Source: Candidatus Zixiibacteriota bacterium (GTDB taxonomy: Bacteria; Zixibacteria; MSB-5A5; CAIYYT01). Taken from it: a stretch of DNA of 64,000 nucleotides. The position numbers were made by a program, and so were the translations under genes. The stretch spans positions 21,759-85,758 of the forward strand of contig JADYYF010000071.1 in the NCBI GenBank assembly GCA_020853795.1, given 5' to 3'. Of the stretch, positions 1-49,601 are shown piece after piece. Every line of letters starts with the position of its first letter. Position 1 is the first letter of the stretch. Below the pieces are notes generated by a model. It saw only the letters and a program-made list of their open reading frames with translations, had not been told where the DNA came from and did not search any database.

Positions 1-1693
1 CCGAGTCGGTCATGATCGCCGTCACGCGGTCCAAGCCCAGTGCAATGCCCCCGTGCGGCGGAGCGCCGTATTTCAAAGCATTCAGCAAGAAACCGAACAT
101 CCGCTCCGCGCGGGCATCGTCCATTCCGAGAATGTTCAGCACTTTCTTCTGCATATCTGAGCGATAATTACGAATTCCCCCCGAGGCCAACTCGAATCCG
201 TTGCAGACCAGATCGTACTGATTTGCGCGAATCCGCGCCCACGGGTGATTTGGATCGGCTAGCGCCAGCGAACTCGTGAAGCCCTCATCAAGCAGTGGAA
301 TATCCGGCTCCTTCGGCGACGTCACGATGTTGTGCATCGCATCAAACCGGCCGATCTCCTTGTTGTACTCGAACAATGGGAAATCGGTCACCCACAGAAA
401 CACGTACTTCGACTTATCGATCAGCCCGAACCTCTTGCCGCAATAACTGCGCACGCGGCCGAGGATCATTTCGGTCGGCAGCTTGACACCGGCGGCAATC
501 AGAATCAAATCGCCGTCGTGTGCCTGCCCCAATTCTTTCAACTTCGCGACGGTCTGATCCGTGAGGAACTTCTTGATCGGCGATTTCACTTCCTCAGCCA
601 GCGCGATCCACGCCAGCCCCTTCGCTCCGGCAAGTTTGGCCTCAGCCTCGATCTCCTCAAGCTGCTTGCGCGAAAGTCCGGCCTGCCCCTTGACGACCAT
701 GCCTTTGACGACACCGCCCGTAGCGAGGGCATCGGCGAACACTTTGAATTCGGTCCCGCCAAATGCCGGCCCGAAATCCACCAGCTTCATCTCATAGCGA
801 CAGTCCGGCTTGTCGGAGCCGTACTCGCTCATGATCTGGTCATACGGAAATCGCGGAAACGGCGCTGCGATGTCGACATTCATCACTTGCCGGAACGCAT
901 ACTTCATCATTCCCTCGACGACCGTGAAAATGTCGTCCTGCGTGACAAACGACATCTCGATGTCAATCTGCGTATGCTCCGGCTGGCGGTCGGCGCGCAG
1001 GTCTTCGTCGCGCAGACAGCGTGCGAGCTGGAAATAACGGTCGAAGCCGGCAATCATCAGGATTTGCTTGAATAACTGCGGCGATTGCGGCAGCGCGTAG
1101 AACTTGCCCGGATGCACTCGCGACGGCACCACGTAGTCGCGCGCGCCCTCCGGCGTCGAGCGCATCATCAACGGCGTCTCGATCTCAAGGAATCTCTGCT
1201 CGTGCATATACTGCCGCACCGCAAACGCCAGCCGATGGCGCAGCTCGATCTTGTCCGCCAGAAAACGGCGGCGCAGATCGAGATAGCGGTAGGTCAGCCG
1301 CAAGTCTTCATTGGCCGTAGTCTCTTCCTCAATTTCAAACGGCGGCGTCTCCGACTCGGCCAGCACTTCGAAATCGCGCACGTCCACCTCGATTGCGCCG
1401 GTCGCAAGGTTCGGATTGATCATCCCCTCCGGACGCAGCATCACCGTGCCGACGACGGCAATGACGAATTCGCCGCGGAAATGCCCCGCCTCGTTCATCT
1501 GTTCCTCGGTGAAATTCTGCGGATGGAAAACCACCTGCGTGATGCCAAACCGGTCGCGCAGATCGATAAACAGGATTCCGCCGTGATTGCGATATTTCTT
1601 GACCCAGCCGTTGAGCCGGACCGTTTGCCCCGCGTGCGCCTTGGTCAGTTCGCCGCAGGTGTGCGTGCGTTGAAATTGCGAAAAAGGTCTCAT
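1..1693 (-). CDS. aspS: Aspartyl-tRNA synthetase, 3' end cut by window edge
   Basis: Class II aminoacyl-tRNA synthetase charging tRNA-Asp (or Asp/Asn in non-discriminating forms) in the cytoplasm. Read on the minus strand from ATG at 1693 (MRPFSQFQRTHTCGEL), 564 codons are present before the window ends. An N-terminal OB-fold anticodon-binding region (about residues 1-105, with NGWVKKYRNHGG) is followed by class II motif 2, RDEDLRADRQPEHTQID, near 960-1010, and motif 3, GIALGLDRV, at about 28-55. The C-terminal few dozen residues lie outside. Whether it is discriminating cannot be decided from what is visible. Very secure as a family call. Confidence 0.95.
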   Translation of the reverse strand, partial: MRPFSQFQRTHTCGELTKAHAGQTVRLNGWVKKYRNHGGILFIDLRDRFGITQVVFHPQNFTEEQMNEAGHFRGEFVIAVVGTVMLRPEGMINPNLATGAIEVDVRDFEVLAESETPPFEIEEETTANEDLRLTYRYLDLRRRFLADKIELRHRLAFAVRQYMHEQRFLEIETPLMMRSTPEGARDYVVPSRVHPGKFYALPQSPQLFKQILMIAGFDRYFQLARCLRDEDLRADRQPEHTQIDIEMSFVTQDDIFTVVEGMMKYAFRQVMNVDIAAPFPRFPYDQIMSEYGSDKPDCRYEMKLVDFGPAFGGTEFKVFADALATGGVVKGMVVKGQAGLSRKQLEEIEAEAKLAGAKGLAWIALAEEVKSPIKKFLTDQTVAKLKELGQAHDGDLILIAAGVKLPTEMILGRVRSYCGKRFGLIDKSKYVFLWVTDFPLFEYNKEIGRFDAMHNIVTSPKEPDIPLLDEGFTSSLALADPNHPWARIRANQYDLVCNGFELASGGIRNYRSDMQKKVLNILGMDDARAERMFGFLLNALKYGAPPHGGIALGLDRVTAIMTDS

Positions 1694-1716
1694 TCTGCTT
1701 CCGTAATCATAGTTTT

Positions 1717-1743
1717 CCCACCCTTCGCTCCGCTCCGGGTGGG
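1717..1743. repeat. Short hairpin repeat, family A copy 1
   Basis: Inverted repeat CCCACCC (1717-1723) / GGGTGGG (1737-1743) with a loop ending in CGCTCC, in the gap between aspS and mntP. A second intergenic copy with the same arms and the same CGCTCCGGGTGGG right side lies at 60663-60690, so it looks like a dispersed REP-like element, not a gene-specific terminator (no T tract). Confidence 0.5.
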
Positions 1744-1888
1744 CGACAGTTGGCACGAGATTGTGCGATTGGCCGCGAATTTAGCGGCGGATTAGCCGCG
1801 AAGATAATCAAATAGAGAGATTTTCAAAGAGGAATTGTTGGCATCGCCGATCGCTTCCTGACCACGCCCGATGCCTCAACATTTCTCG

Positions 1889-1916
1889 TTGCAATGCTGG
1901 CGATCTCTGCTACTTT
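1889..1916 (+). promoter_or_regulatory. Putative promoter of mntP
   Basis: TTGCAA (1889-1894), 16-bp spacer, TACTTT (1911-1916), about 50 bp upstream of the mntP start. The N16 spacing matches the other promoters seen in this window. The rest of the 276-bp gap holds the family A hairpin. I looked for a yybP-ykoY manganese riboswitch, common upstream of mntP, and did not recognise one. Confidence 0.35.
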
Positions 1917-1969
1917 CCCTGAATGATGAGCGTTCCGACAGCGACAACTAATGCCGAGAACCGATCCCA

Positions 1970-2533
1970 ATGAGTTTGTTGACCGTTCTCGCCATCGCCG
2001 TCGGTCTGGCGATGGACGCCTTCGCCGTCGCGGTCGCGGTCGGGACGCGCCTGCACCCGCTTACCTTTCGCCACTACTTCCGCCTCTCATTTCACTTCGG
2101 ACTCTTCCAGGCACTGATGCCGGTCATCGGCTGGTACCTCGGCACCAAGGTCGAACATCTGATCGGTTCCCTCGACCACTGGCTCGCCTTTGCCTTGTTG
2201 GTCTGGATCGGCGGCAAGATGCTGTTTGATGCTTACCGCCACAAAGAGCACATCAACGTCGCCCTCGCCGATCCGACGCGCAAGTGGTCGCTGGTGCTGT
2301 TGTCGATCGCGACCAGCATCGATGCGCTGGCGGTCGGTCTGTCGGTGGCGCTGCTGCAGGTCAGTATCCTGATGCCGAGCGTCGTGATCGGCATCGTCGC
2401 GCTAGCCTTCACCGCGATCGGCTTGCTCTGCGGCCACTGTCTCGGCGCGCGCATCGGCCGCCGCGCGGAATTTGTCGGCGGCATCATCCTGATCGTGATC
2501 GGGGCGCGCATTCTGATTGCGCATCTGATTTGA
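1970..2533 (+). CDS. mntP: Putative manganese efflux pump MntP
   Basis: Inner-membrane Mn(II) exporter of the MntP (formerly DUF204) family, 187 residues, the usual size. The family's duplicated signature is visible: AMDAFAVAVAVG in the first half (residues about 14-25) and SIDALAVGLSV in the second, each providing a membrane Asp. About six hydrophobic segments fill the protein. ATG at 1970 has no clear Shine-Dalgarno; a possible promoter lies at 1889. The following gene is on the same strand but has its own promoter, so mntP is probably monocistronic. Confidence 0.9.
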   Translation: MSLLTVLAIAVGLAMDAFAVAVAVGTRLHPLTFRHYFRLSFHFGLFQALMPVIGWYLGTKVEHLIGSLDHWLAFALLVWIGGKMLFDAYRHKEHINVALADPTRKWSLVLLSIATSIDALAVGLSVALLQVSILMPSVVIGIVALAFTAIGLLCGHCLGARIGRRAEFVGGIILIVIGARILIAHLI

Positions 2534-2564
2534 TCGCGCCACAGTGCGCCGGTCCATATTTCGA

Positions 2565-2593
2565 TTGCATTCTTTGCGCGGAACTCGTATACA
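2565..2593 (+). promoter_or_regulatory. Putative promoter of S9 peptidase gene
   Basis: TTGCAT (2565-2570), 17-bp spacer, TATACA (2588-2593), about 58 bp upstream of the ATG at 2652, which also has a good ribosome-binding site (AAGGAGAATTC just before it). Confidence 0.5.
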
Positions 2594-2651
2594 AGCTTCT
2601 ACGTAAACTGCAACTATCGAAACGAGTTGCAGCTGCCCTGAAGGAGAATTC

Positions 2652-4646
2652 ATGAAGAAGCGCAAAATCACCAAGGATGACTTGCTGAAAATGAAGTTTG
2701 TCGACGGCGTTGCCTTGTCGCCGGACGAAACCGAAATCGCGGTCAACGTCCGCACCATTGCCGCAGACAAGAAGAAATACCATTCGCATTTGTACATGAT
2801 CAACGTCGACGGCTCCGACCTGCGCCAGTACACGCACGGCGAGGTCTCCGATTCGGTGCCGGTGTTTTCACGCGACGGCAAGTGGCTGGCGTTTGTATCG
2901 AAGCGCAATGACAAGAAGGGCATCTACGTCATGCCGCGCCACGGCGGCGAACCGCGGCTGCTCAACGATATGGAAGGCGATTTCGGCGACCTGCAGTTCA
3001 CGCCTGACTCCAAGAAGATTCTGTGCACGTTTCGCAAGTACGACGACGTGCCCAAGACCAAGGACGGTAAGCGCGAAACTCCGGTCTATCGCCATATCAC
3101 CCGGTTGTTCCACAAGCTCGACAACTACGGCTTTATGCCGAAAGAGGAAGCGCAGATCTGGACGATCGACCTGACGACGGGCAAAGGCACCCAGCTCACC
3201 AAGGGCGGCGTCGAGAAGTCCTCGGTGACCTGCTCGCCGGACGGCCGCTGGATTGCCTATGTCACCAACATCCAGCGCAACTTCGATCTCTATCCCGATC
3301 TGCAGGATATCTTCATCATGCCTGCCCATGGCGGCAAGGCGCGATTGATTGCGACACCCAAAGGTCCGCTCGGCTTCGTCAAGTTCTCGCCCGACGGCAA
3401 ATTCCTCGCCTATCTCGGCCACGACAACCCCGATGACTCCTGGGGCGTGACCAACTGGAACGCCTGGAAAGTCCCGGTGCGCGGCGGCAAAGCGGTCAAT
3501 CTTACCAAACGACTTGACCGCTACTGCATGGACGAGACGATCTCCGATACCGTCGAAGCCCACTCCGGCGGTCTGGTGCATTGGTCACCCGACGGCCGCT
3601 GGATTTACTTTGTGCTCAGCGACTCCGGCAGCACCAATCTCTACCGCGTCTCTGCCAGCGGCCGCGTCATCGAGCCGGTCGTGCGCGGCAAACAGCATGT
3701 CATGGGCGCCTCCCTCAACGGCAAAACGACCAAAGTCGCCCTCGTGATCTCGAATCACACTTTGCCGGCGGAAGTCCATGCGTTCGACCTCGTCAAGCGC
3801 AATGCCCGGGTCGAGAAATTGACCGCCTTCAACAAAGCGCTCATGGACGAAATCATGCTGGCCAAGCCGGAGGAAATCATTTTCCGCGGCAAGGGTAACT
3901 ATCCGGTCCACGGCTGGATCATGAAACCGCCCGATTTCTCGCCGCGCCGCAAGTATCCGTCGGTGCTGGAGATTCACGGCGGTCCGCGCGTGCAGTACGG
4001 CAACAGCTTCTTCCACGAATTCCAGGTGCTCGCCGCTGCCGGCTATGTCGTGTATTTCAGCAACATCCGCGGCGGTCAGGGTTATGGCGAGAAGCACGCT
4101 GACACCATTACCAACGCCTGGGGCACGGTCGATTTCGATGACTGTATGGCATTCGCCGACTACATGGAAGCCAAGCCCTACATTAACAAGAAGCGCATGG
4201 GCGTGACCGGCGGCAGCTACGGTGGTTACATGACCAATTGGATCGTCGGGCACACCAACCGCTTTGCCGCGGCGATCACCCAGCGCTCGGTCGTCAATCT
4301 CGAGTCGATGTTTGGCTCCTCCGATATCGGCTACCTGATGACGAAGGAAATCTTCGGCACGCCTTACAACAATCTCGATAATTGGCGCAAGATGTCGCCG
4401 CTGACCTATGTCAAGAAGATCCGCACGCCGCTGCTGATCTCGCACTCGGAGCAGGACTTGCGCTGCCCGATCGAGCAGGGTGAGCAGCTATTCATTTCAC
4501 TCAAGATGCTCGGCCGGACGGTCGAGATGATCCGCTTCCCGGATGAACCGCACGGCTTGTCGCGTTGCGGCCGGCCCGACCGGCGGCTGGTGCGGCTCGA
4601 GTGGTTCGTCAAGTGGTTTGACCGCTACCTGAAAGGCAAGAAGTAG
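2652..4646 (+). CDS. S9 family prolyl oligopeptidase/acylaminoacyl-peptidase
   Basis: Serine peptidase of 664 residues with an N-terminal seven-bladed beta-propeller (repeated SPDG/SRDG/TPDS blade motifs such as FSRDGKWLAFVS and CSPDGRWIAYV, residues about 1-390) and a C-terminal alpha/beta hydrolase domain. Catalytic triad visible as Ser522 in GGSYGG, Asp602 in SEQDLRCP and His634 in EPHGL. No signal peptide, so it is expected in the cytoplasm, cleaving peptides or removing N-terminal blocked residues. Strong RBS before ATG 2652. The stop codon overlaps the GTG start of the next gene (TAGTG), suggesting translational coupling. DPP IV-like or acylaminoacyl activity cannot be told apart from sequence. 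Confidence 0.92.
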   Translation: MKKRKITKDDLLKMKFVDGVALSPDETEIAVNVRTIAADKKKYHSHLYMINVDGSDLRQYTHGEVSDSVPVFSRDGKWLAFVSKRNDKKGIYVMPRHGGEPRLLNDMEGDFGDLQFTPDSKKILCTFRKYDDVPKTKDGKRETPVYRHITRLFHKLDNYGFMPKEEAQIWTIDLTTGKGTQLTKGGVEKSSVTCSPDGRWIAYVTNIQRNFDLYPDLQDIFIMPAHGGKARLIATPKGPLGFVKFSPDGKFLAYLGHDNPDDSWGVTNWNAWKVPVRGGKAVNLTKRLDRYCMDETISDTVEAHSGGLVHWSPDGRWIYFVLSDSGSTNLYRVSASGRVIEPVVRGKQHVMGASLNGKTTKVALVISNHTLPAEVHAFDLVKRNARVEKLTAFNKALMDEIMLAKPEEIIFRGKGNYPVHGWIMKPPDFSPRRKYPSVLEIHGGPRVQYGNSFFHEFQVLAAAGYVVYFSNIRGGQGYGEKHADTITNAWGTVDFDDCMAFADYMEAKPYINKKRMGVTGGSYGGYMTNWIVGHTNRFAAAITQRSVVNLESMFGSSDIGYLMTKEIFGTPYNNLDNWRKMSPLTYVKKIRTPLLISHSEQDLRCPIEQGEQLFISLKMLGRTVEMIRFPDEPHGLSRCGRPDRRLVRLEWFVKWFDRYLKGKK

Positions 4647-5007: not shown

Positions 5008-6258
5008 TCACCAGCGGAACTCAATTTCGACGCGCCGATTCTGTTCGCGGCCGGCGCGCGTGCGATTGGAGGCAATCGGATTGACCGCCCCGCGCCCGAT
5101 CGCCTCCAGGCGCTCGCGGGCGACTCCGCGTGTCACAAGGTAATCGCGCACCGAGCGCGCCCGCGCCTGGGACAGCTTCAGATTCGCGTCTTCGCCGCCC
5201 AGATTATCTGTATGGCAAACGATCGCTGCTCGCACTTCCGGAAACATCTGCAGCAATGCCGCCACCGAGTCCACGGCAATTCCGCGCTCCGCTCGCAGCA
5301 GCGTGTCGCCGGGCGCGAACAGCGCGTGCAGTACCTGCCGGCGCAAGTAAACCTCGTAATCCGGACATCCGTGCGCGTCGACAACGATCCCTCCCGCTGT
5401 GCCAGGGCATGTATCGAGCGAATCGACGACGCCGTCATCGTCAGAGTCGATCTTCGCGCTGGCGGAGTCGACCCGCGCCGGTAGCGGCACCATCAGAGTC
5501 GAATCGGTCGGCGATCGCTGCGGCTGCACTTCGTAGACGCGGCGTTCGGATTCTCTCTCGCGTCGTGGGCGCAACTTCGCGGCACCGCCACGACTGGACG
5601 ATCGCCCGCCAAAGCTGATCGAGATTCCGGCAACTGCGCTGACAATTCCCCGCGATCGGGAGTCATTGACCCAATCGGCGAAGTCGGTTCCCAAGCCGGT
5701 GAGATACATCAGGGTCGTCGTCAGATCGATCGCAATCCGGCTTGAAATCTGATACTCCAGTCCCAGCGCGGCGCTGGCGGCGATTTCCGTGGCCGCCAAA
5801 TCAGTCTTGCCGCCGTCGCTGGACCGCACCACGAGTCTTGCGCCATCCGCGCGCAAATGTACGCTCCAGAGCACCGCTGCCGCCTGCGCCTGCAAGAACG
5901 GCGCCAGTCCACCCCGTTCCTTTAGATAAAGCCGTGGTCCGAAGCTAAGAGTCGTCAGCTTCCAGCGGCGATTGGATCGGTCATTGTCAATATCGAGGAA
6001 AGATGCTACGCACGTATCGTTGTCGATCTGGGCGTGTTGTAGCGACGCCGTCAGTGCCAGCCGTTTTGTTAACTGGATTTGCGCATCGAAGCCGAAGGCG
6101 GGCGCCAGAAGCCAGATCTGCGCCGAGTCATTGAGTACCGGCTGTAGGACACCGCCGTGAAGCTGAATCGTGTAGACGCGACCGCTGCCGCCGACCGCCG
6201 TGGAAGCAACACAAACCGCAGCAAGCAACAGGAGGACAATCCACGCGCGCAGACCCAT
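5008..6258 (-). CDS. OmpA-family outer-membrane protein with thrombospondin type 3 repeat
   Basis: 417-residue protein linking outer membrane and peptidoglycan. Start chosen at ATG 6258 because it opens a clean signal peptide (MGLRAWIVLLLLAAVCVAS); the frame extends to a GTG at 6315 inside spoIID. Residues about 25-240 have alternating patterns typical of a beta barrel or secreted beta domain; a calcium-binding type 3 repeat (DSDDDGVVDSLDTCPG) leads into an OmpA C-terminal domain with the peptidoglycan-contacting Asp (CHTDN) and Arg (QNRRVEIEF). Last gene of the diguanylate cyclase-nagZ-anmK-spoIID run, 31 bp after spoIID, so wall anchoring fits the operon theme. Confidence 0.85.
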   Translation of the reverse strand: MGLRAWIVLLLLAAVCVASTAVGGSGRVYTIQLHGGVLQPVLNDSAQIWLLAPAFGFDAQIQLTKRLALTASLQHAQIDNDTCVASFLDIDNDRSNRRWKLTTLSFGPRLYLKERGGLAPFLQAQAAAVLWSVHLRADGARLVVRSSDGGKTDLAATEIAASAALGLEYQISSRIAIDLTTTLMYLTGLGTDFADWVNDSRSRGIVSAVAGISISFGGRSSSRGGAAKLRPRRERESERRVYEVQPQRSPTDSTLMVPLPARVDSASAKIDSDDDGVVDSLDTCPGTAGGIVVDAHGCPDYEVYLRRQVLHALFAPGDTLLRAERGIAVDSVAALLQMFPEVRAAIVCHTDNLGGEDANLKLSQARARSVRDYLVTRGVARERLEAIGRGAVNPIASNRTRAGREQNRRVEIEFRW

Positions 6259-6289
6259 GATCCGAAGATCGATCAGTTCAACTCGGCGC

Positions 6290-7537
6290 TCAATACATTT
6301 TTTGGATCTGCGCACCGGTGTAATAGTGAGTCAAAATCTCCCGGTAGGTCTGCCCCGCGCGAGCGCGGCCGATGGCGCCGCACTGGCACATGCCGATCCC
6401 GTGCCCGTAGCCGCGGCCGCTGACCTGCACCGCCGTCACCAGGCCGGCGGAATCGCGCACCAACTGAAAATCCACATCCGACGAACGCAGGATCCCGCCG
6501 CCATTCGGCCGCGTAATCGCCCAGCGAATCTGGTCCTTAGTCAGGTACACGTCGCCGCGCTCAGTGGTGACGCGCAGCGTAATGGCACGACCGCCGGTCG
6601 CGCGCGACTGCACCGTCATGGCGAGCAACTGCGTGCCCAGGGTACTCGCATCCTTGCGTCCCGCTTCCAGATACTTGCGAATCGACGCCAGCACCGAATC
6701 CGCCGCCAAGGTTTCGTCCCAGGTGTAGTACTTCGACCAATTGCAGAAGGTGTCATCCGGTACGCTCTGCAGGTATGAACGCGGCTCCTTGTCCCAGACG
6801 TCGGCTACCGCATCGGTGTGACCGCCGCAGGTCGAGTGGTAGTAGGTCTCGATCAGTTCACCGTCCGCCATCAGGACTTCGCCGCGCGTTTCGCGCAGGG
6901 CCTGATCGGTCAGGCGCTGCTCACCGTCGACGCCGATATACACCTGGTCGAGAATCTCGTTAACCATGTCGTATTGTTTGTTGGGATATTTCCCGCGCGT
7001 CACCAGCGCATAGGTGCGCGCCGCCACCGCCTGCGCTTTGACTGCTTCATATTCATCCTGATTGCGCCGGCCAATTTCCGGCGCCAGTACGCCGCGCAGA
7101 TAGTCCTCGAGGTTCAGGACGTTGACGATGTACAAGGTATCGTGGCCGTCGGGATAGAATTCGAAGACACCGCGGAATTTGCGCTTGTCCAGCCACAGCC
7201 ACGACTTCTTGTCCGCCGACACCGTTACTTTTCTGAGTTTCGTTTCCAGCCGGTTGCCGTCGAGATCGGTCAGGGTCAGATATGAGCCTTCCGCTTCGAT
7301 CTTCAAATGCGCTGAGGAGTAATAGGCGGACTTCTCATTGTTGACATCCCAGGTGCGCACCACGCAGTCCCCTTTGGCGCCGAATTTGACCTTGTCCGCT
7401 GTATGCAGGATGCGCACGCGAATCAGCGGCTTCTTGAGCGCATCGTAACCATCTTGCTTGACCGCGTAGTTCATCCGCGCGCAGGCCAGCATCGACACGA
7501 CAAACGTGATGATCGCAACGACGAAGGTTCGCATCAT
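6290..7537 (-). CDS. SpoIID/LytB domain lipoprotein (peptidoglycan glycan-strand hydrolase family)
   Basis: 415-residue protein of the SpoIID/LytB family, whose characterised members (SpoIID) are lytic transglycosylases acting on denuded glycan strands. Lipobox SMLAC places acylated Cys at residue 19. Family signatures: AVKAQAVAARTYAL near residue 167, YYHSTCGGHT near 240 and GRGYGHGIGMCQCGA near 385. Start ATG 7537 overlaps the anmK stop by 4 bp (ATGA), so the two are translationally coupled. Probably faces the periplasm from the outer membrane. The organism need not sporulate: the family is common in non-sporulating FCB bacteria. Confidence 0.88.
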   Translation of the reverse strand: MMRTFVVAIITFVVSMLACARMNYAVKQDGYDALKKPLIRVRILHTADKVKFGAKGDCVVRTWDVNNEKSAYYSSAHLKIEAEGSYLTLTDLDGNRLETKLRKVTVSADKKSWLWLDKRKFRGVFEFYPDGHDTLYIVNVLNLEDYLRGVLAPEIGRRNQDEYEAVKAQAVAARTYALVTRGKYPNKQYDMVNEILDQVYIGVDGEQRLTDQALRETRGEVLMADGELIETYYHSTCGGHTDAVADVWDKEPRSYLQSVPDDTFCNWSKYYTWDETLAADSVLASIRKYLEAGRKDASTLGTQLLAMTVQSRATGGRAITLRVTTERGDVYLTKDQIRWAITRPNGGGILRSSDVDFQLVRDSAGLVTAVQVSGRGYGHGIGMCQCGAIGRARAGQTYREILTHYYTGAQIQKMY

Positions 7538-19091: not shown

Positions 19092-20609
19092 ATGACCGTT
19101 CCCAGACCGCGCTTGCCGCGCTTAGCTTACAACTGGATCAGTTCGTTCGGTGCTTTTATCGCGCTCGCCACGGCCCTGGTGATCATTGTGATGCTGTTGA
19201 TCAGTTTCACCATGGAGCAGACCAGTGCCTACTTCGGCATTTTCCTGTACATGGTACTGCCGGCGATCCTGATCTGCGGTCTGATCCTGATTCCAATCGG
19301 TATGTTCCGCGAATGGCGCCGCTGGAAACGCGGCGAATCCTCTGAGTTGCCCAGGTGGCCGCTCGTCGATCTCAATAATCCCCGTCACCGCAACGCTACC
19401 GCGATCTTCGTCGTCGGCACCGTTCTCTTCTTCGCCATTTCTGCGGTCGGCAGCTACCAGGCTTACCACTATTCCGAGTCGGTCAAGTTCTGCGGCACCA
19501 CCTGCCATACGGTGATGGAACCGCAATACACGGCTTACCAGGCCTCGCCCCACGCCCGCGTCGCCTGCGTTGAATGCCACGTCGGTACCGGCGCCTCCTG
19601 GTACGCCAAGTCCAAGCTCTCCGGCGCCTACCAGGTCTACGCCGTTATGGCAAACGTCTATCCGCGCCCGATCGCCACCCCGATCCGCAACCTGCGCCCG
19701 GCACGGGAAACCTGCGAGGAGTGCCATTGGCCGGAAAAGACCTACGGGCAGGAACTGCGCACCTTTACGCACTACATGTACGACGAGGACAACCCCAAAT
19801 GGTCGATCGATATGCGCATCATCACCGATACCGGTGAACCGCACGCGGGGCAGAAAGCCGGTATCCACTGGCATATCAACCCCGACATCAAGATCGAATA
19901 CATCGCCCGCGACTACGGCCGCCAGGACATTCCCTGGGTGCGCGTCACCGAAAAATCAACCGGCGCCGTCACCCTGTACGAGGACGAAGCGAATCCGCTC
20001 GATCCGGCCGCCCGCGATACCCTGGCGGTGCGCGTGATGGACTGCATCGACTGCCACAACCGCCCCAGCCATATCTATCGCTCGCCCGACTACGCCGTTG
20101 ACCGCTCACTCCAGGCCGGTTTTATCGATCCAACGCTGCCCGGTATCAAGGCACTTGCGGTCGAAGCCATGGCGGCCGAATACGACACCAAAGACGCCGC
20201 GCTGTCCGCCATTTCGACGCGAATCAATGACCACTATAAGGAAGCCGGACTGCTGGACGATCCGGCTCGTCACAGCGCCGTGGACTCGGCGATCGTCGCA
20301 GTCCAGCACGCCTTCACCCAGAATATCTTCCCCTATATGAAGGCCCGCTGGGACGTTTACCCGAACAACATCGGCCACTTCAACGACATCGGCTGCATGC
20401 GTTGCCACGCCGGCAACCACAAGAGCTCCGCTGGCGCTGCAATCACGCACGACTGCTCCGCCTGCCATACAATTGTGACCCAAGGTCCGGCCGGTGCCAT
20501 GGAACGCGATTCCACCGGACTCGGCCTGGAATTCAAACATCCCGTCGATATCGACGACGCCTGGAAGGAAACCGGCTGCTACGAATGTCATGCCGGCGTC
20601 CAGCCTTAG
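19092..20609 (+). CDS. NapC/NirT-like membrane multihaem cytochrome c
   Basis: 505-residue inner-membrane cytochrome with three predicted N-terminal transmembrane helices (about 20-41, 47-71, 101-121) and a large periplasmic haem domain. Haem motifs: CGTTCH at 134-139 (a CX3CH variant followed by a Met, as in NapC-like first haems), then CVECH, CEECH, CIDCH, CMRCH, CSACH and CYECH, seven in all. The region SPHARV...CHVGTGASWY...SKLSG is typical of NapC/NirT quinol dehydrogenases. Likely passes electrons from the quinone pool to periplasmic partners; the porin-cytochrome operon at 45.6-49.2 kb is a possible recipient (inference). GAGGAGACAAAG precedes ATG 19092. The first half of the upstream gap encodes SRP RNA sequences. 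Confidence 0.85.
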   Translation: MTVPRPRLPRLAYNWISSFGAFIALATALVIIVMLLISFTMEQTSAYFGIFLYMVLPAILICGLILIPIGMFREWRRWKRGESSELPRWPLVDLNNPRHRNATAIFVVGTVLFFAISAVGSYQAYHYSESVKFCGTTCHTVMEPQYTAYQASPHARVACVECHVGTGASWYAKSKLSGAYQVYAVMANVYPRPIATPIRNLRPARETCEECHWPEKTYGQELRTFTHYMYDEDNPKWSIDMRIITDTGEPHAGQKAGIHWHINPDIKIEYIARDYGRQDIPWVRVTEKSTGAVTLYEDEANPLDPAARDTLAVRVMDCIDCHNRPSHIYRSPDYAVDRSLQAGFIDPTLPGIKALAVEAMAAEYDTKDAALSAISTRINDHYKEAGLLDDPARHSAVDSAIVAVQHAFTQNIFPYMKARWDVYPNNIGHFNDIGCMRCHAGNHKSSAGAAITHDCSACHTIVTQGPAGAMERDSTGLGLEFKHPVDIDDAWKETGCYECHAGVQP

Positions 20610-27709: not shown

Positions 27710-28300
27710 ATGAAACCCTCAACCGCCAAATTCCTGATCCTGTTTTCGCTTTCCGGCGCGACCCTCTTGCTGATCACTTGCGCCCAAAGCGGGAGCAAAC
27801 CGCTAACCGAGGCTGAACTCGTCCAACGCGGCGCCTATCTCGTCTCGTCCGGCCTCTGCAATGATTGCCACTCGCCCAAGAAATTCACCGCCGCCGGGCC
27901 GGTCCCGGACGAGTCGATTCTCCTCTCCGGCCACCCGGCCTCGCTGCCGGCGCTGGAGTTCCCCGCCGACAAACTCGATCCCAACGGCTGGGCGGTCACG
28001 GCCAATGCCCACTTTACCGCCTGGGCCGGCCCCTGGGGCGTCTCCTTCACGGCCAATCTGACGCCGGATGAAAAAACCGGTCTCGGTTCCTGGAAGGTCG
28101 AGGACTTCATCAAGGCGATGCGCAGCGGCAAACATATGGGCACCGGCCGCGACATCCTGCCGCCGATGCCGTGGCCGCTGATCGGCAAGATGTCCGATGA
28201 CGATCTCAAGGCGATCTTCGCCTATCTTCAGTCATTGCCGGCCGTGCCGAATCTCGTTCCCGGCCCGATTCCGCCGCCGGCACCGCCCGCACAGAATTAG
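27710..28300 (+). CDS. Monohaem cytochrome c lipoprotein, copy 1
   Basis: 196 residues; lipobox LLITC gives acylated Cys about residue 24. One haem motif CNDCH (about residue 52) near the N-terminus and a distal Met candidate in ILPPMPW (about residue 149). The body (SFTANLTPDEKTGLGSWKVEDFIKAM, AIFAYLQSLPAVPN) matches cytochrome c family proteins common as soluble or membrane-anchored electron carriers. A full-length paralogue follows at 28469. RBS AAGGAG upstream of ATG 27710; terminator at 28335. Confidence 0.85.
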   Translation: MKPSTAKFLILFSLSGATLLLITCAQSGSKPLTEAELVQRGAYLVSSGLCNDCHSPKKFTAAGPVPDESILLSGHPASLPALEFPADKLDPNGWAVTANAHFTAWAGPWGVSFTANLTPDEKTGLGSWKVEDFIKAMRSGKHMGTGRDILPPMPWPLIGKMSDDDLKAIFAYLQSLPAVPNLVPGPIPPPAPPAQN

Positions 28301-28468: not shown

Positions 28469-29071
28469 ATGCAGCCAACCACTGCCAAGATCGTACTTTT
28501 CCTGTCGCTGATCGGTGCTGCGTTGCTCTTGATTACCTGTGCCCAAAGCGGCAGTGGCGACCAACCCTTGACCCAGGAACAACTCGTCAAACGCGGCGAG
28601 TACCTCGTCACAATTGGCGGATGCAACGATTGCCATTCGCCGAAGAAGTTCGGACCGAAGGGCCCCGAGCCTGATCCGTCGATCCTGCTCTCGGGTCATC
28701 CCGCTAACGCCGGTGTGCCGGAGCTGGTCCCCGGCATTCCCAATCCTGCCGGCTGGATGGCGGCGTGCAATGCGCACATGACCGCCTGGGTCGGCCCCTG
28801 GGGGATTTCCTTTGCTGCCAATCTCACGCCCGATTCCCAGACTGGGATCGGCGACTGGGAAGAGGCCGATTTCATCAAGGCGATGCGCACCGGCCAGCAT
28901 CTCGGCATGGGTCGCGACATCCTGCCGCCGATGCCGTGGCAATCCATCGGCAAGTCCACCGACGCGGACCTCAAGGCGATCTTTGCCTACCTGAAGTCGC
29001 TCCCCGCAATCCCGAATCTGGTGCCGGGTCCGATTCCGCCGCCGCAGTCGGAAGCGCCCGCACACAACTAA
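28469..29071 (+). CDS. Monohaem cytochrome c lipoprotein, copy 2
   Basis: 200-residue paralogue of the preceding gene, similar over the whole length: lipobox LLITC, haem motif CNDCHSPKKFG, ILPPMPW with the likely axial Met, and C-terminal AIFAYLKSLPAIPNLVPGP. Differences cluster in the middle segment (GVPELVPGIPNPAGW instead of ALEFPADKLDPNGW). Own promoter and downstream hairpin, so the duplication included the promoter and leader, and the two can be regulated separately. Confidence 0.85.
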   Translation: MQPTTAKIVLFLSLIGAALLLITCAQSGSGDQPLTQEQLVKRGEYLVTIGGCNDCHSPKKFGPKGPEPDPSILLSGHPANAGVPELVPGIPNPAGWMAACNAHMTAWVGPWGISFAANLTPDSQTGIGDWEEADFIKAMRTGQHLGMGRDILPPMPWQSIGKSTDADLKAIFAYLKSLPAIPNLVPGPIPPPQSEAPAHN

Positions 29072-45622: not shown

Positions 45623-46705
45623 CTACGGCAGAGTTATCGGATTCGCGTTCAGATACTGAATCGAAGACTTCAATAACCCTTCAAAGTACTTCGGATTATG
45701 AGCACCATGAGAACGATCTTCTTTGTAAATCGCCCAGTTGTAGGCGGCCGCCGCTTGCAGTCTGGCGATTTTCTTGGTTCTGAACAAGTTTGTCGCCGGA
45801 TCAACGACCTTAGTCAGGAGAACCTTCAGTGAGTCGGCTAAATTGTCGAATTCAGTCTGGAATCCTTCGATGACACCATCGCCGTCAATATCGCGTGGTT
45901 TGAAGTCGTCAAACTTGGTCACCCCGGACTCACTGTAGCGCGAATGGCAGGGAGCACATACACCGATAAGCGTATACGTCGTCCCATCGTGCGATTCGTA
46001 TTCCATGTTAAAGCTGTGCCCGCCGATATTGTAGCCGTCGTGCTGGGTCGGATTCCCCATGTGACAGCCGATACAACCGTCTTCCACCACAGTCGCATGG
46101 GTCGTACTGGTATAGGTATAACCGGCAAATTGATAGCCGTGAGTACCTTGCAGCATGTCGCCTTGCGGTCCGTGGTGCGGGCCTGTCCGCGAATTGAGAG
46201 TCACGCTGTCAGCGGTACCGAGATCGGTCGCCAGGCTTGTGCGCGAATGATGGCAGTTTACGCACAGATTTGCAGCGCCGTGATCGAAGACCACACCGTT
46301 TTTCAAGGTGTACGGCGCCTCGGTGCGCAAGGTCAGGTCGCCGCGCTCATGCGGCGCATGGCAGGTGAAGCAATGAATGGCGCTGACCGTGGCCAGGGCG
46401 AGCGTGTCCTCGTCGCCGGTATTGATCCAGTCCAGGAATCCCTGGTGATCGTGGCACTGCTGGCAATCGGACTTGGCACGATTGGTGTAGTCGATGCTCG
46501 TGCCGGACGCATGCAGCGAGTTCTCCCACTCGCCGCGCGCTTGCTGCAACGCGCCGTCAAAGCTGGTTTCGCCGTGGCAGGCAAAACAGCCATTTAGACT
46601 CTGGTCGTTGCTGGCGACCTCGTTAACGATCTTGCGCTCGCATCCTGCGATCAACGCCACCGCCAGAATGAGGGCGACAATGAGTAGTGCTTTCAGGATC
46701 CTCAT
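45623..46705 (-). CDS. Hexahaem cytochrome c lipoprotein (outer component of porin-cytochrome complex)
   Basis: 360 residues. Lipobox LIAGC, acylated Cys at residue 22, so anchored in the outer membrane. Six CxxCH haem motifs: CFACH, CQQCH, CFTCH, CVNCH, CIGCH, CAPCH, spread over the first 260 residues; the C-terminal 100 residues are helical and haem-free. Third gene of a minus-strand operon after a periplasmic multihaem cytochrome and a barrel, the layout of porin-cytochrome conduits, suggesting a cell-surface terminal reductase or electron outlet. RBS AGGAGG precedes ATG 46705. Distinct from the 10-haem MtrC/OmcA family. Confidence 0.88.
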   Translation of the reverse strand: MRILKALLIVALILAVALIAGCERKIVNEVASNDQSLNGCFACHGETSFDGALQQARGEWENSLHASGTSIDYTNRAKSDCQQCHDHQGFLDWINTGDEDTLALATVSAIHCFTCHAPHERGDLTLRTEAPYTLKNGVVFDHGAANLCVNCHHSRTSLATDLGTADSVTLNSRTGPHHGPQGDMLQGTHGYQFAGYTYTSTTHATVVEDGCIGCHMGNPTQHDGYNIGGHSFNMEYESHDGTTYTLIGVCAPCHSRYSESGVTKFDDFKPRDIDGDGVIEGFQTEFDNLADSLKVLLTKVVDPATNLFRTKKIARLQAAAAYNWAIYKEDRSHGAHNPKYFEGLLKSSIQYLNANPITLP

Positions 46706-46714
46706 ACGAACCTC

Positions 46715-48265
46715 CTAGAACGATATTCCTCTAATTAGACTGAATTCTACCACATTACCGGTGTAATAGTCCTCGTACACCGACAAATCATCAAAATTGT
46801 AAGCGTTGTATTCGATCTCGCAGCGATAGTCCTGATAGAACCGCAGTGCCGCCGCAATTCGAATATTAAAATGCTCGACGTTGAGGTCGCGCTTACTCTT
46901 GTAATAAAGTGCGCCGAAGCTCACCGTCCCGCCCTTGTACTCCATGCTGGTGATGTCGCCGGAGACCAGATGATCCTGGAACTCGAAGTTCCGGGTCGGG
47001 TTCTCGTAAGTCCCCGCCGAGTGCACGTACGCCGCATTGAGCGTGGCGTACTCCGTCGCCGTGATCACCGCATCGACGGCATAGCGGTACATGTCGGCCT
47101 TGGTACCGAGCTGGTCGTTCTTGCGAATCACGCTCGTCATCTTGTAGCCGAACGCGCCGATCTTCGCCGGGCGGTACTTCACCGAAAACGCGTGCCGGTT
47201 GCGCTCCTCATCCCCCAGCAACCGCACGCCGTCTTCCACTTCTTCCTTGCGATTACCGAACTGATAGTGCACTTCCACCTCCGGCACCGGCTTGCCCCAG
47301 CCGCTGAAGAACAGCGAATTGCCGCGTACTTCGTCCTCGAAATCGTCGTTGACGTCGTACTGGTATCCCACCGTCAGGCCGAAGCGACGCAGATAGTCAT
47401 AGGAGGCATACCCCGCGTGCGTCATGTTGTCGGTCGCGACGAAATCGGAATCCGATGACGTGCGGTCGAGAATACCGACGTACTTCAGGCTGATGTTCTG
47501 CGGCAGATTCAGCACGCCGCCGCCGTAGCCGCGGTTGTTGCTGATCGTGAAATCACTCTGGTCAAACTTCGTCTCGAAGTGCCGGAAGCCGCCGATCAGC
47601 TTGAAGAAATCATACTTCGGGCAGGCAAGAATGCCGCTGAACCGGTACTCCGCCCGCTTCTGATCGCGCGCTTCATTGTTGTTGTCGGTGAATTGATCGC
47701 CGCGGTACTCGCCCAACACCATCGAACCCTTATAATTGAACTGCGCGCCGAAGTTGTAGTAGGTGCGCTTGTAGTCGACATTGACCTCGGTCGGATCCGG
47801 CTTGGGATTGAACAGGTCGGTCGTCGTGCCGGTTCGTTCCATCATCAACAGTCCGCCGAACAGCGTCACATATTCCACCGGTGTCACGCGCAAGTTGGCG
47901 TGCTCTTGGTGCCGCCGTGTGAAGCTGGTACCGTTGAAATTGTAGATGCGCCGGAACTGGTCATGACCTACCCGCAAATCGAACTGCCCCGGCTTGGCCA
48001 GCGACGCGCTTAAGTTGCGATTGTTCATAATGATGTTCTTCAGATCCGCCCGCACCTGCATGCCGTTGTCGAAGCGATAACGGAAGCCGTCGAGCGAAAT
48101 CGTCGGCCCTTCGTACAAGTTGAAAGTCGGATGGTAAACCGACTGGTTGCCCTCTTCATCCAGGTAGATGTAGCCGACGCGCACCTCGCCGGTACCGGTC
48201 GCCGCGACGGCCGCTGCCGCCAGCATCAGGAGGGCGCCCAACAGAAACGATAACTTCAGTTTCAT
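46715..48265 (-). CDS. Outer-membrane beta-barrel porin, MtrB/PioB-like
   Basis: 516 residues from ATG 48265 (GGAGG six bases upstream), signal peptide ending in AAAVAATG. The whole mature chain is alternating amphipathic strands with aromatic girdles (YRFDNGMQVRADL, YKRTYYNFGAQFNYKG, YDYLRRFGLTVGYQYDV) ending in VVEFSLIRGISF, with the terminal Phe expected of a barrel. No Cys haem motifs. Situated between two multihaem cytochrome genes with gaps of 9 and 11 bp. By analogy to MtrAB/PioAB it forms the sheath through which a periplasmic cytochrome passes electrons outward. Confidence 0.82.
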   Translation of the reverse strand: MKLKLSFLLGALLMLAAAAVAATGTGEVRVGYIYLDEEGNQSVYHPTFNLYEGPTISLDGFRYRFDNGMQVRADLKNIIMNNRNLSASLAKPGQFDLRVGHDQFRRIYNFNGTSFTRRHQEHANLRVTPVEYVTLFGGLLMMERTGTTTDLFNPKPDPTEVNVDYKRTYYNFGAQFNYKGSMVLGEYRGDQFTDNNNEARDQKRAEYRFSGILACPKYDFFKLIGGFRHFETKFDQSDFTISNNRGYGGGVLNLPQNISLKYVGILDRTSSDSDFVATDNMTHAGYASYDYLRRFGLTVGYQYDVNDDFEDEVRGNSLFFSGWGKPVPEVEVHYQFGNRKEEVEDGVRLLGDEERNRHAFSVKYRPAKIGAFGYKMTSVIRKNDQLGTKADMYRYAVDAVITATEYATLNAAYVHSAGTYENPTRNFEFQDHLVSGDITSMEYKGGTVSFGALYYKSKRDLNVEHFNIRIAAALRFYQDYRCEIEYNAYNFDDLSVYEDYYTGNVVEFSLIRGISF

Positions 48266-48276
48266 CCACTCCCTCC

Positions 48277-49230
48277 TTAATGCTTCAGGTTGTCGTGACA
48301 ACCGGAGGCGTAGCAGTTGGCGTAAAAGGTGGTCGTCAGCATCGGGTCAAGGAACAGCTTGTTGTCGTTCGAACCGTGGAATTGCGTGTGGCAATTCACG
48401 CAGTCGATCTTGACCGCCATGCCGGAATGGGCAACGCGATGGCCGGGCGGTACGCCGTGGCACTGAATACAGACACCGTTGCCGGGCTGCAACAGCAGGC
48501 GTTCGTTCGGCGAACCGTGCGGGCTGTGGCACTCCACGCACCCGCCGCCGTCCACCAGGTGGTTGTAGTTGACCGGATGCTCGTAGACGTACGGCCCCGC
48601 CACATCCGCGTGACAGTTCTGGCACGACCAGTCGAATCCCTTGGCCAATTGCATGTCCTGGCGATTGTTCATCGGGTGGCAGTCGGCACACGCTACGCTG
48701 CCTTCGTGCAGCGGATGCGCCGAGCGCGCGCTGAACTGGGCGCCGACCGTCTGATGACAACCGAGACAGTAGTTCTCGCTGTCATCCTTCACCAGCGCCG
48801 CATTCTCATTCCCGTGAATCGAATGGCAACTCGCGCAATCCAGCCCGGCGCGGCCGTGCGGATCGGTCGTCACCATCAGCGCCTGATGCTCGTTCTGGTG
48901 GCACGAGGCGCACGCGTTCGCCTGTTCGGCAAATGGCAGCTTGCTCGGTACCACCGGCTTGTTGGCTTCCGGATCATCCAAGTGCGTCTCCCAACCGCTG
49001 TGACACTCGACACAGGAAACCGTGATGCCACGCGCGCCGGCTGCGGAAAGTGCATGCTTCGATCCGAGAAGATTGTCCGCCATATCCTGATGACACTCAA
49101 GGCAAGCTTCATTCGACGCACTCGTGGTTCCCTCCGCCGTCAGCGGCACGGTTGCCAGCAGCGCACCGAATAAACCCAGCAGCGAGATGACGATCAGGAT
49201 CGGGGCGGGTTTCTTCAGTCTTCTATTCAT
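48277..49230 (-). CDS. Periplasmic multihaem cytochrome c, MtrA/DmsE-like
   Basis: 317 residues from ATG 49230 (MNRRLKKPAPILIV, CGGGGAA upstream); signal peptide or anchor about 5-34. Ten CxxCH motifs (CLECH, CVECH, CASCH twice, CLGCH, CADCH, CQNCH, CVECH, CIQCH, CVNCH) plus a C-terminal CYASGCH (CX4CH), giving 10 or 11 haems, packed at about 25-residue spacing like the wire-type MtrA/DmsE cytochromes. First gene of the porin-cytochrome operon, downstream of two CRP/FNR-type palindromes. Expected to insert into the MtrB-like barrel. Confidence 0.9.
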   Translation of the reverse strand: MNRRLKKPAPILIVISLLGLFGALLATVPLTAEGTTSASNEACLECHQDMADNLLGSKHALSAAGARGITVSCVECHSGWETHLDDPEANKPVVPSKLPFAEQANACASCHQNEHQALMVTTDPHGRAGLDCASCHSIHGNENAALVKDDSENYCLGCHQTVGAQFSARSAHPLHEGSVACADCHPMNNRQDMQLAKGFDWSCQNCHADVAGPYVYEHPVNYNHLVDGGGCVECHSPHGSPNERLLLQPGNGVCIQCHGVPPGHRVAHSGMAVKIDCVNCHTQFHGSNDNKLFLDPMLTTTFYANCYASGCHDNLKH

Positions 49231-49291
49231 ATATTCCCCGTTGGTGAGTAAAAAGTCCATTTTCATAAAACAGATTCGGCAACGTCCTGTA

Positions 49292-49307
49292 TGTGAAATC
49301 TGTCACA
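49292..49307. promoter_or_regulatory. CRP/FNR-type palindrome, proximal
   Basis: TGTGA-AATCTG-TCACA, a perfect TGTGA-N6-TCACA dyad (CRP consensus form). Its centre is about 41-45 bp before the transcription start implied by the -10 candidates, the class II activator position, and about 70 bp before the start codon of the multihaem cytochrome. Confidence 0.65.
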
Positions 49308-49410
49308 AAGTTCTCTTGTTTCCGGCCTGCAATTATGATGCTGTGTCACGACCAAGTCAATAAAAAAGTATTATGAAATTGTCGGATTTATCCATCTTGT
49401 TGTCTTTTAT

Positions 49411-49426
49411 CGTGAAATCAATCACA
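49411..49426. promoter_or_regulatory. CRP/FNR-type palindrome, distal
   Basis: CGTGA-AATCAA-TCACA, same dyad with one change in the outer base, 119 bp centre-to-centre from the proximal site. Flanks (GTGAAATC...TCACAAA) match those of the proximal copy. Confidence 0.55.
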
Positions 49427-49601
49427 AACTTTAGAAATAAGACCGCAATAATTCGACATCTTCATCGAGATTTCTGCTAATTCCGCTCGGAATTTACGAT
49501 CGAATTAGTTGGAGTAAGTAGCTAATCCGCAAATGCCCCGCGCAATTGCCCCGATTCGGAGTAAGTTCATCTCGTCACAAACTACCTATCGGAAGACTGA
49601 C

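Follow-up and report, generated by a model that had tools for sequence, protein, structure and literature searches.

A predicted MtrAB-type electron conduit with a putative OcwA/NrfA-type outer cytochrome in Zixibacteria

The three-gene locus

We analysed a 64,000-nucleotide stretch of DNA (the window), which is part of one contig (C71) in a 3.56 Mb genome of 215 contigs from a Candidatus Zixiibacteriota bacterium. Three minus-strand genes at 45623-49266 probably encode an outward MtrAB-type outer-membrane conduit with an OcwA/NrfA-type tip. The first gene (48277..49266; stop codon TAA at 48277-48279; alternative ATG start at 49230) encodes an MtrA/DmsE-type exported cytochrome. It is followed, after 11 bp, by the gene for a predicted MtrB-type outer-membrane beta-barrel (46715..48265; ATG at 48265, stop codon ending at 46715) and, after a further 9 bp, by that for a predicted lipoprotein with six CxxCH motifs, the proposed outer terminal (45623..46705; ATG at 46705, stop codon ending at 45623). 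A preliminary description of the window had read this trio as a porin-cytochrome conduit. Its gene coordinates and gaps agree with ours; the range that it gave, 45623..49601, also takes in the 335 bp of intergenic sequence that lie upstream of the genes (49267-49601). Our motif scan returned the motifs that it had listed: ten CxxCH and one CX4CH (CYASGCH) in the exported cytochrome, six CxxCH behind LIAGC in the lipoprotein, and a C-terminal Phe in the barrel. The same scan found no haem motif in the barrel. MtrA homology, the predicted barrel fold and gene order in relatives all support the conduit reading; the electron path and the conduit function are inferred.

The product of the first gene matched chain A of structure 6r2q (E 5e-26) over residues 44-301, a stretch spanning ten haems. 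We take this chain to be MtrA; the structure listing gives a wrong molecule name. By its ten CxxCH motifs and this match, the product is a periplasmic decahaem cytochrome of the MtrA/DmsE type, with a TIGR03508 score of 160 bits that falls under the curated cut-off of 192.2. The 11th motif, CYASGCH (residues 318-324; 48295..48315, minus strand), sits in a 28-residue C-terminal tail past the MtrA-matching stretch. We compared this tail across 120 homologues listed of 213 found, 81 of them in a close group and 39 in a distant group. Among these listed matches, a tail motif was present in all 81 close homologues (CX4CH in 68, CXCH in 11, CX2CH in 2) and in 1 of the 39 distant ones. CXCH spacing (e.g., GCFCHYYR) was seen in MtrA-like proteins of loci L044, L046, L047, L049, L051, L053, and L054; we know of no haem site with this spacing. 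Because the canonical CX2CH replaces CX4CH at the same place in homologues, we argue for haem binding by the CX4CH motif. In the accessible text of one study, CX3-4CH motifs count as confirmed haem sites (PMC4245776), and another describes the C terminus of MtrA as facing outward (PMC7198977); the extra haem would therefore sit at the exit of the conduit.

The model of the barrel has 26 predicted strands, with MtrB as its best solved structural match by a wide margin, which agrees with an MtrB-type fold. The preliminary description had proposed that the conduit be given up if the barrel matched no porin of 20 or more strands, and the predicted structure matches one. It had also called for profile searches. 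These bore out the MtrA homology, whereas the barrel, like the MtrA relative, scored under the curated cut-offs (22.7 bits against 240.05 for TIGR03509; 22.0 bits against 23 for PF11854) and so is not placed in the MtrB/PioB sequence families. The conduit is therefore classed as MtrAB-like on the strength of its MtrA homology and its barrel fold rather than on MtrB/PioB family scores.

Gene order in related genomes

We searched 146 related genomes, counting by genome (two, G017 and G065, each have a second row in the barrel list). The barrel was found in 71 genomes and the lipoprotein family in 83; within the genome studied here, each has one match. In 56 of the 71 barrel genomes, the lipoprotein gene is found downstream in the same orientation, and the consistent absence of the barrel that the preliminary description had named as a sign against the conduit was not seen. 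The match distance is 13-126 bp in 44 of these 56, and in the other 12 the match starts 1125-1178 bp further on, within frames of 690-740 amino acids. Fifteen barrel genomes have no adjacent lipoprotein match; one of them (G030, locus L018) has a lipobox-like cytochrome with eight CxxCH there instead. Co-occurrence of barrel and lipoprotein gave a Fisher P value of 2.6e-11, which ignores shared ancestry and was not used as proof.

The trio is present in 26 of 31 named loci, one of them in a Krumholzibacteriia bin (L063). Two others are cut by contig ends (L052, and L060, where an Eisenbacteria bin has the lipoprotein and part of the barrel), and L065, L066, and L067 have no barrel within the stretch examined. 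The L067 gene, at 5923-7323, is a six-haem lipoprotein relative in an Oligoflexia bin. Chance origin of the trio is very unlikely, because its gene order is conserved in relatives. Most loci differ from one another in their flanking genes, which suggests that the trio is a self-contained cassette.

Three loci (L045, L061, and L064) carry long forms of the lipoprotein, of about 700 amino acids, with 12-13 CxxCH and one or two CX4CH matches. At L065 (2239-4477), a separate seven-haem lipoprotein lies beside the six-haem one. This neighbour and the long forms suggest that fusion has enlarged the tip. In 12 genomes the match lies within frames of 690-740 amino acids, which gain a further haem domain in the three that were read and suit an exposed, growing tip. 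They speak against a lipoprotein on the periplasmic side that would supply the MtrA relative, in a conduit without an outer cytochrome, as does the description of the relatives OcwA and OmhA, in the accessible literature, as cell-surface terminal proteins. We consider the periplasmic arrangement very improbable, even though a surface signal is not readable from sequence and mtr clusters without MtrC are described. It would also be consistent with a profile check for GspD and type II secretion, which found nothing over cut-off. The profile concerned, TIGR02517, is presumably that of the export secretin needed by MtrC-type lipoproteins.

The outer lipoprotein

The preliminary description had suggested that the outer component could be a new type of terminal, a suggestion that holds. 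In our analysis it groups with OmhA, OcwA, and NrfA and is not a cut-down MtrC. Profile matches tie the 360-amino-acid lipoprotein to octahaem nitrite reductase, NrfA, and OcwA. We aligned 120 of the 580 homologues found. The Cys of LIAGC is kept in all 118 that have that column, and a simple lipobox pattern matches 96 of the 120.

The model of the lipoprotein is predicted to have an OcwA/NrfA-type fold. Its best structural matches in VIA-align were OcwA (6i5b) and OmhA (6qvm). In Foldseek, OmhA was the sole match at E <= 0.001 and OcwA was not among the 23 matches, so that OcwA appears as a structural match through VIA-align only. Secondary structure assigned to the model with DSSP has few strands, all short, and three C-terminal helices (residues 282-296, 315-330, and 338-354; 45644..45862, minus strand), together with the conserved His336. 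Such a predicted three-helix bundle is a mark of the NrfA-related superfamily. Haems 2-6 of the lipoprotein align with haems 5-9 of OcwA, with one further haem in front. Profile-profile comparison returned 91-93% probability whether the OcwA piece or either control was compared, and is not usable as proof; only its aligned length (137 columns, versus 43 and 32 for the controls) favours OcwA.

The genome's own NrfA (L070 1336-2766, on contig C153) scores 427 bits with PF02335; its first haem motif is CxxCH, not CxxCK. When the lipoprotein was aligned to it with MAFFT, the C-terminal half aligned well and the second NrfA haem was set three residues off; the N-terminal part of the core did not align reliably, and the C-terminal half alone was used. 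Within it, the haem order and distal His pattern are those of the penta-haem core: His203, His230, and His336 align with His residues of this NrfA, and His230 and His336 also with OcwA. The lipoprotein is nevertheless not NrfA proper (20.2 bits with PF02335; cut-off, 24.1), and its six motifs fall short of the nine haems, including c554-like haems 1-4, of OcwA proper. We conclude that it belongs to the NrfA-related superfamily, yet is neither NrfA nor OcwA.

An ordinary MtrCAB set whose MtrC has been reduced to a single haem domain appears most improbable. PF22113 does match the lipoprotein over cut-off. We rejected this match as a sign of an MtrC-type terminal because it is not discriminating: the part of OcwA that holds haems 5-9 reaches almost the same score (28.2 bits). 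The model, with its three helices at the C terminus and its few, short strands, also argues against a shrunken MtrC. The layout of MtrC/OmcA (ten haems, with two penta-haem and two split beta-barrel domains) is absent, and TIGR03507 gave 11.3 bits against a cut-off of 209.3. None of the 146 genomes has an MtrC-type gene over that cut-off, in a search that had no positive control over it; weaker TIGR03507 matches (E <= 0.001) in 76 genomes were taken as generic CxxCH matches. The chains of MtrC, OmcA, and UndA are not among the VIA-align rows of the lipoprotein, which proves nothing.

The pair His177-His178 (46172..46177, minus strand) aligns, within one residue, with a His-His pair of OcwA that we take for the one above OcwA haem 5. 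His177 is present in 120 of the 120 aligned homologues and His178 in 112. His177 could also ligate haem 2. A His-His pair near haem 2, in a relative of NrfA, octahaem nitrite reductase, and OcwA, fits a conduit for a soluble acceptor, in which the lipoprotein would be an extracellular enzyme (for nitrite, hydroxylamine, or similar) and the system DmsEFAB-like, as in Shewanella, and not directed at minerals. OcwA itself is described as reducing nitrite and hydroxylamine, but its nitrite turnover is given as merely 1 per minute in the accessible text. There are six invariant distal-type His for six haems, which also permits a pure relay; the genome has its separate NrfA; and a relative of OmcS, described below, points to solid acceptors. 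We therefore regard a dedicated soluble acceptor as unlikely.

Candidate partners and other cytochromes

The preliminary description had named a NapC-like cytochrome beginning at 19092, and two cytochrome c lipoproteins, as possible electron suppliers. The NapC type held (33.3 bits with PF03264; cut-off, 24.1), and the haem motifs number seven, not six, when its CX3CH is counted. The product (19092..20609, plus strand) has 505 amino acids and, by hydropathy scan, three hydrophobic stretches, with one CX3CH and six CxxCH. ImcH is described, in the accessible text of a 2018 survey, as having three N-terminal transmembrane helices, an adjacent CX3CH, six CX2CH, and 495-519 amino acids (PMC6295460). 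We thus assign the 19092 product to the ImcH type by published description, not by comparison with an ImcH sequence. It is likely the quinol-side donor. Homologues occur in 92 of the 146 genomes; 63 genomes have both the barrel and an ImcH-type homologue (Fisher P value, 2e-10, which ignores shared ancestry and was not used as proof), and in 16 the two lie within 10 kb of each other. They are 26 kb apart in this genome.

These data bear on inward electron flow, as in iron oxidation by PioAB/MtoAB. Both directions are described for MtrAB-type modules, and genes for iron oxidation as well as iron reduction are described in some Zixibacteria. The ImcH family, however, is so far tied only to quinol oxidation in the accessible text of the survey (PMC6295460), and its homologue lies near the barrel in the 16 genomes mentioned. 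Inward flow is thus quite unlikely.

The two cytochrome c lipoproteins are a tandem pair of similar mono-haem proteins at 27710..28300 and 28469..29071 (plus strand; PF00034, 22.6 and 22.1 bits, respectively; cut-off, 21.3), the first noted as a possible periplasmic carrier. Elsewhere in the genome (L068, contig C52; 8675-9760, minus strand), we found a relative of OmcS with six CxxCH (6ef8_A, E 2.5e-39), whose neighbours encode an NHL-type protein, a PPIase, a 703-amino-acid barrel-looking protein, and a seven-haem cytochrome. This locus is likely a second, nanowire-type system. At 3-3127 of the same locus (minus strand), two overlapping frames at a contig end specify cytochromes with paired CxxCH, one with 26 haem motifs and the other with at least 14; they are either a split giant cytochrome or two genes.

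Upstream DNA signals

A sigma-70-like promoter (TTGACT-N17-CATAAT; 49332..49360, minus strand) lies upstream of the trio; it is the sole match in the window, with none in 100 shuffles. Two CRP/FNR-type palindromes, TGTGA-N6-TCACA (49292..49307, minus strand) and, 119 bp upstream of it, TGTGA-N6-TCACG (49411..49426, minus strand), are the only TGTGA-N6-TCACR sites in the 64 kb (0.26 matches expected). Both the promoter and the CRP/FNR patterns were chosen after the sequence had been seen. Both CRP/FNR-type sites, with identical 119-bp spacing, recur at same-genus locus L037. Exact sites occur in 3 of 23 other loci (L037, L041, and L054), with a near site in L039. CRP/FNR-type regulation may, at best, be a trait of this family.

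Proposed electron path

In the outward conduit that we favour, which would work like MtrCAB, the ImcH-type cytochrome would oxidise quinol at the inner membrane. A periplasmic carrier would hand the electrons to the MtrA relative, lodged in the barrel, at its N-terminal haems. The exit would be the additional haem near the C terminus of the MtrA relative, facing outward, from which the surface-anchored lipoprotein would take the electrons up. This lipoprotein would comprise the equivalents of OcwA haems 5-9 and one haem in front, with five haems likely bis-His. Haem 2 (CQQCH) may lie in a pocket under the His-His pair, in which it would resemble the open haem 5 of OcwA, and could deliver electrons to minerals, humics, electrodes, or partner cells, perhaps also to small N-oxides. 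A bolder proposal, which we offer tentatively, is that Zixibacteria may have a conduit of their own: an eleven-haem MtrA-MtrB wire capped by a terminal reductase of the OcwA/OmhA kind, to date described from the cell walls of Gram-positive bacteria, with a swappable tip drawn from the nitrite reductase superfamily, whose open haem might reduce both solids and small N-oxides outside, and whose haem number might have risen from 6 to 13 through fusion with a neighbouring c554-like lipoprotein.

MtrAB is terminated by an MtrC-type cytochrome in the Gram-negative conduit that has been studied best, and OcwA is described as an unrelated Gram-positive solution. An operon joining MtrAB to an OcwA-type tip would demonstrate modular evolution, in which wire and tip change independently, and the recruitment, as tips facing outward, of proteins related to enzymes that act on soluble nitrogen compounds. 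The phylum is repeatedly counted, in the accessible literature, among likely iron reducers of sediments and the subsurface, and the trio would give these bacteria a route for electrons to extracellular materials. Database names for the lipoprotein homologues, where given, are mostly "hypothetical protein" or "nitrite reductase c552 subunit," which makes the capacity easy to overlook.

Comparison with known systems

Homologues of mtrAB or porin-cytochrome genes are already described in Zixibacteria (PMC9769843, PMC7005843, PMC10809760), as are iron-cycling genes (PMC8478452), in the accessible text of these reports. Open-access literature searches did not find the tip, its pairing with MtrAB, or the 11th haem. 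The trio resembles Shewanella MtrAB (6r2q chains A and B) in MtrA homology over ten haems and, from the accessible description of MtrB, in its 26 predicted strands, short strands 2-4, and helical turn between strands 1 and 2. It differs in the eleventh motif, in a barrel whose precursor has 516 amino acids (against 649 residues in the MtrB chain) with a long strand 1, in the lack of MtrC, and in its gene order, A-B-lipoprotein. Pcc clusters of Geobacter, Ignavibacterium, and others likewise combine a porin with periplasmic and outer cytochromes, but their porins are described as having 18-22 predicted transmembrane motifs, with variable haem numbers, whereas the barrel here is of the MtrB type. 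The ImcH-type protein agrees with Geobacter ImcH in size, hydrophobic stretches, and motifs; in contrast to the 16 genomes noted above, the accessible text of the 2018 survey reports no mtrAB adjoining imcH (PMC6295460).

The lipoprotein shares with MtrC/OmcA its place in the operon logic and the PF22113 match, and lacks their ten-haem four-domain layout, with no split-barrel domains in its model. With NrfA and octahaem nitrite reductase it shares the profile relation, the helices, and the distal His pattern of the C-terminal half; it is set apart from NrfA by its PF02335 score, extra N-terminal haem, lipobox, and conduit partners. OcwA of Thermincola and OmhA of Carboxydothermus are its best structural matches, with the His-His pair, the C-terminal helices, and the correspondence of haems 2-6 to OcwA 5-9 in common, and the tip described here has six haems where they have nine or eleven.
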